This document shows, one piece after another, positions 1,315 through 18,609 of a stretch of DNA of 41,339 bases. The position numbers and the translations under genes are program-made. The number at the start of each line of letters is the position of its first letter. Within the stretch, counting starts at the first letter, position 1. The notes under the pieces are model-generated. The model did no database searches. It was not told the DNA's origin and was given only the letters and a program-made list of their open reading frames with translations. Source of the stretch: Gammaproteobacteria bacterium Ga0074134 (lineage in GTDB: Bacteria > Pseudomonadota > Gammaproteobacteria > Ga0077554 > Ga007554); contig LNEJ01000023.1 of the NCBI GenBank assembly GCA_001464965.1, positions 1 to 41,339 of the forward strand, written 5' to 3'.

Positions 1315-2109
1315 TCATTCATGATAGCCAAAGACATAAGCGCCATACCCTACCACTTGATCGCGTGGGCCGGCGGTGTCTCCCGAATTGCGCAGATCAA
1401 CTGTTTCTGCCTGCAAGTAGTGTTTTTTCGCAGCGTATAACAGGCCATTGACGGGATTACGTCCGCAAGCATCTTCATAGTGTATGTCTTGCGGCCGTAG
1501 CGCCTCGATGGCGTGTGACGTGGCACTATCTAGCCTGCGGGCGGTTTCGTAGTCATGGTAATGGCTGAGGTCGGAGCTGATTACGATGAGGGTTTCCGGT
1601 CCTCCCCACAGTACCTCCAGCACTTCATCGATCTCCTCCGGCGTGGCATCGCCCACTACCAGTGGCACCAGCATGAAATCACGCAGCACTTCCTGCAGAA
1701 AGGGCAGATGCACCTCCAGACTGTGTTCCTCAGCATGCGCCTGATCCAGCACGTGCACCTGGGGCAGTGACAGAATCAGATTAATGGGTACATAGTCGAT
1801 AGGTATACTGCCCAGCGGAGTTGCAAAGGCATAAGCGCTGCTCACCGCCAGCCCGCGGAACGCCACATGATGTGCCGGGCCAAGCAACACCACTCGCCTG
1901 ATAATGTCGCGCGCAGGCTTGAGGCGCGCATAGGCGCTTGCCGCCACTGGGCCGGAGTAAATATAGCCGGCATGGGGCACAATAATTGCCTTTGGCACAG
2001 GCCCGGAAGATTCTGCCTCGTTTAGCAAACCCGCCACCATGGCGTGTAACGCACGCGCATTGGCGGGATAAAATTGGCCTGCGACGGCCGGATGGCGCAC
2101 GGTAGTCAT
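1315..2109 (-). CDS. amrB: AmmeMemoRadiSam system protein B (Memo-like)
   Basis: This 264-aa protein belongs to the Memo family, whose fold resembles class III extradiol dioxygenases (LigB). The putative metal-site residues are visible: His46 in VPHAGYIYSGP, His80/His81 in LLGPAHH, His129 in EEHSLEVHLPF, the SSDLSHY segment around His183, and Cys215 in DACGRNPV. Human MEMO1 binds metal through equivalent His/Cys residues; the bacterial role is unresolved. The gene is divergent from amrS and would originally have been followed directly by amrA. Its stop codon abuts the right end of the inserted MITE-like element, so the coding sequence itself looks intact (C-terminus GAYVFGYHE, normal for the family). 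Confidence 0.92.
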   Translation of the reverse strand: MTTVRHPAVAGQFYPANARALHAMVAGLLNEAESSGPVPKAIIVPHAGYIYSGPVAASAYARLKPARDIIRRVVLLGPAHHVAFRGLAVSSAYAFATPLGSIPIDYVPINLILSLPQVHVLDQAHAEEHSLEVHLPFLQEVLRDFMLVPLVVGDATPEEIDEVLEVLWGGPETLIVISSDLSHYHDYETARRLDSATSHAIEALRPQDIHYEDACGRNPVNGLLYAAKKHYLQAETVDLRNSGDTAGPRDQVVGYGAYVFGYHE

Positions 2110-2237
2110 CGCTTTACCCCTTCGCTGGATTCATAATTTGAAAATGGCGGCAATACCTGACACTTTCAAGGTGGCGCTTGAATTTCCGGTGATCGCTCGC
2201 CATTTATATAAGATAGCCTGCCGCTAGGAGAGATGTC

Positions 2238-3335
2238 ATGACCACTCAGCCCATGAGCGCCATAGTTCCCACTAAATATTGGCATGTTATTGAGGATGGA
2301 CGTATCCAGTGTGACCTTTGTCCACGGTTTTGCAAGCTCCACGAAGGACAGCATGGGTTGTGTTTTGTGCGTGCGCGCCAGAACCATCAAATCGTCCTGA
2401 CCACCTATGGCCGTTCCAGCGGCTATTGCGTCGACCCCATCGAGAAAAAACCGCTCAATCATTTTCTGCCAGGAACGCCGATCCTGTCTTTTGGCACTGC
2501 CGGATGCAATCTCGCCTGCAAGTTTTGTCAGAACTGGGATATCAGCAAGGCGCGCGAGACGGATGTGCTCGCCGACCAGGCCCCGCCGGAATTGATTGCC
2601 CGCGCCGCGAAAAAACTGGGATGCAGCAGCGTTGCCTATACCTACAATGATCCGGTTATTTTCATGGAATATGCCATCGATGCCGCCAAGGCGTGCCGTA
2701 CGTTGGGTATTAAATCTGTGGCCGTCACCGCCGGCTATATCACCGAGGAGCCGCGCAAGGAATTTTTCAGCTACATGGACGCGGCGAATGTCGACCTCAA
2801 GGCCTTCACGGAGCAGTTCTACCACAAGATCTGCGGTGGGCATTTGCAGCCGGTGCTGGACACACTCAAATACCTCAAGCATGAGACCAATGTCTGGTTC
2901 GAGATCACCACTTTGCTGATACCGGGGGAGAACGATTCCGATCAGGAGCTGGAAGAGATGACACGATGGGTAGTGGAAAATCTGGGCCCGGATGTGCCCC
3001 ACCATTTCACTGCCTTTCATCCCGACTGGAAGATGTTGGACAAGCCGCCCACCCCGCCCGAAACCCTGACCCGCGCGCGCCGCATTGCCATGAAGAACGG
3101 CATACGCTATGCCTATACCGGTAATGTACGTGACGTTGAGGGCGGCAGCACCTATTGTCATCAATGCGGTAAAAAACTGATCGGACGCGATTGGTATGTG
3201 ATCACTGAATGGCATCTCACTGATGATGGCCATTGCCAAAGCTGCAGCACCCGATGTGCTGGGGTATTTCACGGCCCAGCGGGGGACTGGGGGCCGCGGC
3301 GGCTGCCGGTGCGGCTTAAGGATTTTGCAGTGTAA
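2238..3335 (+). CDS. amrS: AmmeMemoRadiSam system radical SAM enzyme
   Basis: This 365-aa protein carries the radical SAM iron-sulfur motif CNLACKFC (Cys90, Cys94, Cys97), preceded by a four-cysteine N-terminal segment (C25, C28, C32, C42). A C-terminal zinc-ribbon-like part contains YCHQCGKK and CQSC. These features match the third component of the AmmeMemoRadiSam trio, related to pyruvate formate-lyase activating enzymes. The substrate is not known. A strong ribosome-binding site (AGGAGAG) lies 5-10 bases before the ATG. The gene is transcribed divergently from amrB across a 128-bp intergenic region, so amrS and amrBA are probably co-regulated but separately transcribed. Confidence 0.93.
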   Translation: MTTQPMSAIVPTKYWHVIEDGRIQCDLCPRFCKLHEGQHGLCFVRARQNHQIVLTTYGRSSGYCVDPIEKKPLNHFLPGTPILSFGTAGCNLACKFCQNWDISKARETDVLADQAPPELIARAAKKLGCSSVAYTYNDPVIFMEYAIDAAKACRTLGIKSVAVTAGYITEEPRKEFFSYMDAANVDLKAFTEQFYHKICGGHLQPVLDTLKYLKHETNVWFEITTLLIPGENDSDQELEEMTRWVVENLGPDVPHHFTAFHPDWKMLDKPPTPPETLTRARRIAMKNGIRYAYTGNVRDVEGGSTYCHQCGKKLIGRDWYVITEWHLTDDGHCQSCSTRCAGVFHGPAGDWGPRRLPVRLKDFAV

Positions 3336-7954: not shown

Positions 7955-10698
<2,744 letters not shown>

Positions 10699-15880: not shown

Positions 15881-16993
15881 ATGACTGTTTACCACGGAGA
15901 AGCTGAATACTCTCATGGCACTTTGCCTGTCACCGGCATATTGATCACCAATCTTGGCACACCCGACGCGCCCACTGCGCAGGCTGTGCGTCGTTATCTG
16001 GGTGAGTTTCTGTGGGATCCGCGCATCGTGGAAATTCCGCGCCCGCTGTGGTGGCTTATTCTGCATGGCGTGATCCTGCGCATTCGCCCTAAACGCTCAG
16101 CGCACGCCTATCAGAAGATATGGACAGATGAGGGTTCTCCAATGCTTGCGATTTCACGCAAGCAGGCCGCAGCACTGCAACATCTGCTGGAACAGCAGTT
16201 CGGTGGGCCGGTGAAGGTGGCATTGGGCATGCGTTATGGTACCCCCTCCATTGCCGATGGATTGGCGGAGCTGCGCACGGCCAACGCACGCCGCATCCTG
16301 GTGTTGCCGCTCTATCCTCAATATGCGGCGTCAACCACGGCCTCCACCTTCGATGCCGTGGCCAATGTGCTCAAGACCTGGCGCTGGATACCCGAATTGC
16401 GCATGATCAGCCATTATCATGACGATCCTGCTTATATCAACGCCCTGGCGGCCAGCATCCGTGAGAGTTGGGAGAAACACGGCCAAGCCGAACGCCTGTT
16501 GTTTTCCTTTCATGGCATACCTAAACGCTGCCTGCTGGCGGGCGACCCCTATCATTGCGAATGTCACAAGACAGTGCGGCTGGTGGCAGAGCAGCTCCAA
16601 TTGCCCGCCGACCGCTGGCAACTGGCATTTCAATCGCGCTTTGGCCGCGAGGAGTGGTTAAAGCCCTATACAGATAAAACCCTGGAGGCTTGGGGTAGGG
16701 CGGGAGTGAAAAGCGTGGATATAGTGTGCCCCGGCTTTTCCGCCGACTGCCTGGAGACACTGGAAGAAATGGCCATGCTCAATCGCGGCGTGTTTCTTGA
16801 AGCGGGCGGGGAAAAATACCATTACATCCCGGCGTTGAACAACCGTGATGATCACATGCAATTTCTCGCCGGCCTGGTGAAGAAGCATACTCAAGGCTGG
16901 CCGGAGACGGATGCGGAATGGAATGCAACGCAACACGCCAAGGAAGCCGAAACCAGCCGCCACCACGCGCTGGAAATGGGCGCGGCGCGGTAG
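15881..16993 (+). CDS. hemH: Ferrochelatase
   Basis: HemH inserts ferrous iron into protoporphyrin IX, the last step of protoheme synthesis. The 370-aa protein contains GILITNLGTPDAP at the N-terminus, the catalytic His211 in FSFHGIPKRC, and the acidic CPGFSADCLETLEE segment (Glu292/Glu295). PLYPQYAASTTAS is also diagnostic. A Cys-containing stretch DPYHCECH follows the active-site His; it need not imply an iron-sulfur cluster. The start MTVYHGEAEY gives an extension of about 15 residues before the conserved core. It is the last gene before the dif site. Confidence 0.96.
   Translation: MTVYHGEAEYSHGTLPVTGILITNLGTPDAPTAQAVRRYLGEFLWDPRIVEIPRPLWWLILHGVILRIRPKRSAHAYQKIWTDEGSPMLAISRKQAAALQHLLEQQFGGPVKVALGMRYGTPSIADGLAELRTANARRILVLPLYPQYAASTTASTFDAVANVLKTWRWIPELRMISHYHDDPAYINALAASIRESWEKHGQAERLLFSFHGIPKRCLLAGDPYHCECHKTVRLVAEQLQLPADRWQLAFQSRFGREEWLKPYTDKTLEAWGRAGVKSVDIVCPGFSADCLETLEEMAMLNRGVFLEAGGEKYHYIPALNNRDDHMQFLAGLVKKHTQGWPETDAEWNATQHAKEAETSRHHALEMGAAR
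16693..16700 (+). other. KOPS-like octamer GGGTAGGG pointing toward dif
   Basis: This matches the FtsK-orienting polar sequence GGGNAGGG exactly. It is on the strand that reads toward the dif site 590 bp to the right, the expected polarity. It lies in hemH coding sequence, and a single octamer can occur by chance. Confidence 0.35.
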
Positions 16994-17289
16994 CGCGCAG
17001 GCGCAACGCCAACCTACGAGCCTGACTTTCTGCGTTTTACGTTGTGACCAACACCGCCATGGCTCAACCCGCCGAGGCCATTGCCGATCAGATGCGCCAG
17101 TCGGCCCAGGAATTGTGCGTCAGGCGGTCTGATTAACAGGCGCCCCCGATGGCGGCACGAGGATAAATCGGGACATGGCCAGCAAGGCTTTAACCAGAGT
17201 AGGACCACCGAGCTTGAGCAGGTCGTACAATTCGATGTTGTGGTTACGGCTGTGGTGCAGCAGCATCGGCAACAAACCACCATTATTTT
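16994..17289. other. Gene-poor stretch before dif with possible gene remnants
   Basis: No complete gene is convincing. On the plus strand 17044-17139 reads as a short protein-like piece (MAQPAEAIADQMRQSAQEL) ending in TAA. On the minus strand 17120-17266 is a 48-codon frame (MLLHHSRNHNIELYDLLKLG, then GGPTLVKALLAMSRF) with plausible amino-acid usage but a poor ribosome-binding site. Both may be remnants of decayed genes next to the terminus. Confidence 0.35.
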
Positions 17290-17317
17290 ACTTCGCATAA
17301 TGTATATTATGTAAAAT
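17290..17317. other. dif: dif site (XerC/XerD chromosome-dimer resolution site)
   Basis: The 28-bp sequence consists of XerC arm ACTTCGCATAA, central region TGTATA and XerD arm TTATGTAAAAT. Against E. coli dif, recalled from established knowledge, 24 of 28 positions agree; three differences lie in the variable outer part of the XerC arm and one in the XerD arm. The central hexamer is identical. Such a site is normally single per chromosome and sits at the terminus, where FtsK-activated XerCD resolves dimers. All large-locus genes to its right read toward it and the nearest left genes (nhaA, hemH) read toward it, consistent with replichores meeting here. Confidence 0.93.
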
Positions 17318-17349
17318 TAACGGCGGATCGAATCTGTATTACTTTGTTG

Positions 17350-18609
17350 CTAACCGCGCTTCGCAAACCATGGCACAAGTTGCCCCTGTGTCTCTGCGGG
17401 TGCGTATTCTGCCTGGGTCTTTAGCATTATCACCTTGCACAATACCAACATCGCGAACAAGTGATAGTAAAGATCGAAATATCCCAAGCCTAAAAAGGTT
17501 CCTGCCGCAGCATACCCGATCAGGCTCACTTGCAGCATGGACGCCAAATCAGAGAGCCATTTTGCTTCAGGAATTCCCTTGGCATTTTTTATTACCCAGC
17601 TTCCCGTACGCCATGCAAACAGCCATAGCGTCAAGAACAGGGCCAAACCCACAAAGCCGTGCTCACCAAGAATCTCAAAATAAATGCTGTGGGCTTCGGT
17701 TCGTCCGGCGAAGATTTCAAAGCCACCTCCGGTGAGAGGATTTTTTAGCGCGGTATCAAAAGCAAATTGCCAGGCTTCAATTCGCCCTTGAGCCGATTCA
17801 TCTGCTTCATATGTTTTAATGGTATGCATACGGTCAAACCAGGATTTAGGCATGAAAGATAATGCCGCAGGAGCGGCAAGACTCAAAAGAATCAGTAGGA
17901 TGACCTTCTGCCGGCTTTTCATGAGAAGAAAAAGCCCCATTACGGACATGCCCAATAGCGCACCGCGTGATTGCGTCCCCAATATCGCAACTATGGTAAG
18001 AAACATAGCCCCTGCAAGGCCATTACGCAGCCATATCTGGCGGGAATTTAATTGAAGATAGCGCATCAGGGGAATGGTCATAATCAGGGCAAGGCCAATT
18101 TCGTTGTTGCCGCCGATAAATGTGCCATTCGGGCCCATTACATGATAGCTGCCACCGCTAGTCATAGTAAAAATCCCGCCCTTTATCCCATAAAATCCTA
18201 ATGACAAGGCGATGATCCAAACCAGGGCATGCAGGCGCTCGCGGGTATTAATAAGTATCAGCGTCAGGAAAATCATTACCTGAATCTTGACGACCTTTTC
18301 CAGTTGCACCCACGCCAGACTGGGATATTGAGCAAAGAAGGTGGTGACTAGCATCCATAGAATGAATACCAACAACAAGATGGTTTCCTTGCTCCATGGA
18401 ATACGTTTGGATTCTTTTGAGAAAATAAAAGCAACGAGTGTGACAACCCCCACGATCATGGCAAAAGGAAAGTTGGTGGCAAAACCCCAAGATAAACGGT
18501 GTGGATTCATATATCCAAGCCACGACCAGAGCAATATTCCAATGTAAGGTTGCAGGAATACTGACGGAAGGGTGCCAAGCACAACCAGGGTAACAAAAAT
18601 ATCTCTCAT
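17350..18609 (-). CDS. O-antigen-ligase-like polymerase/ligase, exosortase A-associated
   Basis: This 419-aa integral membrane protein has about ten to twelve hydrophobic segments and the O-antigen ligase/Wzy-type core: the periplasmic GTQSRGALLGM motif and the long loop before AHSIYFEILGEHGFVGLALF, whose Arg/His residues are typical of the fold. The N-terminus (LPSVFLQPYIGILLWSWLGYMNPHRLSWGFA) matches what I know of the exosortase A-associated O-glycosylation ligase family (TIGR03097). It would polymerise lipid-linked repeat units or transfer glycan at the periplasmic face. It is the last gene of the XrtA locus; its stop lies 32 bp from the dif site and no terminator is visible between them. 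Confidence 0.88.
   Translation of the reverse strand: MRDIFVTLVVLGTLPSVFLQPYIGILLWSWLGYMNPHRLSWGFATNFPFAMIVGVVTLVAFIFSKESKRIPWSKETILLLVFILWMLVTTFFAQYPSLAWVQLEKVVKIQVMIFLTLILINTRERLHALVWIIALSLGFYGIKGGIFTMTSGGSYHVMGPNGTFIGGNNEIGLALIMTIPLMRYLQLNSRQIWLRNGLAGAMFLTIVAILGTQSRGALLGMSVMGLFLLMKSRQKVILLILLSLAAPAALSFMPKSWFDRMHTIKTYEADESAQGRIEAWQFAFDTALKNPLTGGGFEIFAGRTEAHSIYFEILGEHGFVGLALFLTLWLFAWRTGSWVIKNAKGIPEAKWLSDLASMLQVSLIGYAAAGTFLGLGYFDLYYHLFAMLVLCKVIMLKTQAEYAPAETQGQLVPWFAKRG

Follow-up and report, generated by a model that had tools for sequence, protein, structure and literature searches.

The question raised by this locus is whether a 28-bp sequence (ACTTCGCATAATGTATATTATGTAAAAT, positions 17290–17317, plus strand) is the chromosome's own dif, the site of chromosome dimer resolution, or a look-alike of another origin. 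The window, i.e. the whole stretch of 41,339 nucleotides that was analysed, represents the entire contig C23 of genome G000, the assembly of an uncultured gammaproteobacterium, which comprises 2.90 Mb in 80 contigs and is rated 100% complete. Annotation of the sequence as dif is based on its similarity to the dif site of E. coli, its presence as a single genomic copy, its position at a strand-skew switch and its conservation in relatives. The 28-mer is almost certainly the single chromosomal dif of this organism, and on the basis of established knowledge binding of the recombinases, activation by FtsK and recombination are to be expected at this position.

Alignment to E. coli dif revealed 24 of 28 identical bases, including the complete central hexanucleotide TGTATA (17301–17306, plus strand). 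This is exactly what had been claimed by a previous sequence-only reading of the window. The differences are found at positions 1, 2 and 4, within the outer part of the XerC arm, and at position 24 within the XerD arm. The predicted XerC-binding arm ACTTCGCATAA (17290–17300, plus strand) was delimited by alignment to the dif sites of E. coli and of the relatives, while the predicted XerD-binding arm TTATGTAAAAT (17307–17317, plus strand) deviates from E. coli dif solely at position 24, which is a reported variable position (PMC2731167). An independent-base model predicts 7e-7 chance matches as close to E. coli dif for the window and 5e-5 for the whole genome. The site has a G+C content of 21% (55% for the window), is palindromic (20 of 28 positions equal the reverse complement) and is located within a 356-bp intergenic region (16994–17349, defined by the list of open reading frames and by gene families) between hemH and a gene for an exosortase-A-associated O-ligase. 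Folding of the single-stranded DNA gave no hairpin at dif better than those of shuffled sequences (z = −0.78), as expected for a recombinase site, which acts as a duplex.

The sequence-only reading had also predicted that a genome scan would give one match to the 28-mer. Indeed, the sequence occurs once in the window, and this is the single copy in the 2.90-Mb genome when up to 3 mismatches are allowed. As a control the pattern was read backwards, which yielded zero matches in the genome. Leaving the 6-bp core free and tolerating 3 mismatches did not reveal a second dif-like site in the genome. Since this loose pattern detects a single dif-like place, the assembly harbours no integrated element of the Xer-exploiting type with dif-like sites at its ends.

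The genome encodes the recombination machinery that would act on such a site. XerC (TIGR02224, 363 bits, contig C36) and XerD (TIGR02225, 378 bits, contig C31) were both identified with scores above the NCBIfam cut-offs, and the gamma domain of FtsK (PF09397, 97 bits) is encoded on contig C56. Weaker matches to the Xer models on contigs C72, C73, C24 and C57 fall well short of the cut-offs for XerC and XerD and possibly represent other tyrosine recombinases or integrases.

A chromosomal dif should lie where strand composition changes its polarity, and the sequence-only reading had placed both the extreme of the GC skew and the switch in KOPS polarity at this position. For the genome itself the skew curve is that of the window contig, as the remaining contigs (80 in all) are in unknown order. 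Cumulative GC skew in the window rises to a maximum at position 9,675 and then drops, which leaves a distance of 7.6 kb to dif, and keto (G+T) skew peaks at 16,273, about 1.0 kb from dif. This offset of the GC-skew maximum is within the published spread for proteobacterial dif sites, for which a median distance of 7,277 bp was reported (PMC2731167). The KOPS-type octamer GGGNAGGG is present in 4 forward and 1 reverse copies left of dif and in a ratio of 1:5 on the right side (one-sided p = 0.067), a distribution based on few sites (11).

KOPS listed across all 80 contigs revealed no switch, given the unknown contig order. Because the genome is too fragmented for a wider view, the same-genus genome G003 was included, in which dif is found at position 594,028 of a 1.9-Mb contig, and 400 kb centred on dif were analysed. 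Within this region GC skew peaks at 594,125, at a distance of 97 bp to the first base of dif, and the ratio of forward to reverse copies of GGGNAGGG changes from 24:9 before dif to 5:41 after it (p = 1.7e-8). Both expected switches were seen, around dif in the window and at dif in the congener. Other G-rich octamers, GGGNCGGG and GGGANGGG, switch polarity in G003, too. According to this, the KOPS polarity partly reflects general strand composition, namely the G-richness of the leading strand.

The same site was found once each in two of three congeners (G002 and G003) and in two of four other members of the family (G004 and G005). No match to dif was detected in the same-genus genome G001 (78% complete) and in G006 (94% complete) and G007 (85% complete) of the same family. 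At this position BLAST aligned no more than about 28–32 bp of the window with the relatives; the flanks are unrelated and the gene contexts differ. Five genomes of the same class, each assembled as a single contig and carrying a site within 3 mismatches, have dif at a distance of 46.5–49.3% of the chromosome from dnaA. In the genome studied here dnaA is located on a different contig from dif.

Xer-exploiting mobile elements bring or generate dif-like sites. Together with a dif gene neighbourhood that is unlike that of the congeners, this would speak for the 28-mer being the dif-like half of an integrated element of this type (IMEX, filamentous phage) or a plasmid-type Xer site instead of the chromosome's own dif. 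We regard such an origin as very improbable, since the genome-wide search with free core and 3 mismatches gave no second dif-like site, the flanks consist of ordinary chromosomal genes (hemH, nhaA, the XrtA locus), phage and plasmid records gave no match to the intergenic stretch, and the polarity switch falls at the site. Insertion of an IMEX, recognizable by two flanking dif-like sites with mobile genes between them, was rejected as a candidate, as one site is present in the genome.

Even less credible is a dif-like sequence that arose by chance or decayed and has no function. The differences to E. coli dif, one in the XerD arm (position 24) and three in the outer part of the XerC arm, would fit such a view, but the small number of chance matches expected per genome (5e-5), the location at the switch of skew and KOPS polarity, and the conservation of the 28-mer in relatives whose flanking DNA is not conserved all argue against it.

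We therefore return to the chromosomal dif as the preferred reading. That the site is the functional dif of the chromosome, as the sequence-only reading had it, is supported by its uniqueness, by the genes for XerC, XerD and FtsK gamma and by the polarity switch; recombination itself would then proceed as in known systems. An odd number of crossovers would join the sister chromosomes to a dimer, and FtsK at the septum would pump the DNA along KOPS towards dif. There each of the 11-bp arms that flank the 6-bp core would be occupied by its recombinase, XerC or XerD, and recombination between two copies of dif would restore monomers.

With the E. coli dif/XerCD/FtsK system the locus shares 24 of 28 bases, the same core, the encoded XerC, XerD and FtsK gamma and a single copy at the polarity switch, whereas the four substitutions at positions 1, 2, 4 and 24 distinguish it. 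A published comparison of proteobacterial dif sites from 161 chromosomes described them by homology, proximity to the GC-skew maximum, single copy number, intergenic location, palindromic structure, low G+C content and the presence of XerC and XerD (PMC2731167). All of these descriptive features are found for the window site as well, and nothing of substance differs from the published set apart from the species, which is another, uncultured one. The evidence thus supports well a functional-looking, ordinary chromosomal dif, with the reshuffled neighbourhood as the only point of mild interest. With this site the replication terminus of an uncultured gammaproteobacterium can be placed although the assembly is fragmented, and the contig gains an orientation: genes to the left of 17.3 kb belong to one replichore, the XrtA locus to the opposite one. 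Apart from this placement and orientation the result is routine annotation.

The left neighbour of dif is hemH encoding a ferrochelatase (15881–16993, plus strand; TIGR00109, 329 bits), whose product has 93% identity to that of MAG ND4_Bin_8 and 76% to that of MAG Ga0077554, the closest named records. The first gene to the right encodes the exosortase-A-associated O-glycosylation ligase (17350–18609, minus strand; TIGR03097, 524 bits) and belongs to an XrtA/PEP-CTERM polysaccharide locus (17350–38773, minus strand), identified by exosortase A (TIGR03109, 24442–26286) and associated families. Its genes are read towards dif and, provided that dif is the terminus, follow the movement of the replication fork. 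Genes for AmmeMemoRadiSam protein B and the radical SAM enzyme (TIGR04336, TIGR04337) are present at 1315–3335, left of dif.

If the 28-mer is the chromosomal dif, the XrtA locus and the AmmeMemoRadiSam genes are terminus-proximal, as the sequence-only reading had proposed. For the present genome this can be maintained, and proximity of the XrtA locus is shared with G002, in which the O-ligase gene lies 10.6 kb to the right of dif and hemH 26 kb to the left. It is not a fixed trait, however, since in G003 the O-ligase gene is 198 kb away. In the latter genome hemH (151 kb) and the O-ligase gene are both on the right side of dif, and an AmmeMemoRadiSam-purB block is found 16–26 kb to the left. 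The junction of hemH, dif and the XrtA locus (15881–18609 of the window) is not kept across the genus.

About 6.8 kb of the block left of dif in G002 were found on contig C8 of the genome studied here and its last gene (yebC-like) on contig C41, so that these genes are not lost but located elsewhere. For the 10 kb that adjoin dif on its right side in G002 (genes for XdhC, CoxE and molybdopterin dehydrogenase), no DNA match was obtained in this genome. Absence of a specific genetic environment has been described for proteobacterial dif sites, and the changing neighbours around a fixed 28-mer agree with this (PMC2731167). A tentative and rather unlikely interpretation is that strong reshuffling of the chromosome around dif within the genus leaves nothing but the 28-mer in place at the polarity switch. 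In this case dif would perhaps be a frequent breakpoint, by Xer-mediated or terminus-specific rearrangement, to which hemH may have been joined recently on one side and the XrtA locus on the other.

The minus strand between hemH and dif contains an open stretch (about 17113–17283, about 50 codons) that was noted as a possible gene remnant and had no match beyond noise among the loci compared. Within the XrtA locus, the region between the O-ligase gene and the glycosyltransferase genes contains a formyltransferase-like and a CoA-ligase-like gene, together with one whose product shows weak similarity to squalene cyclases.
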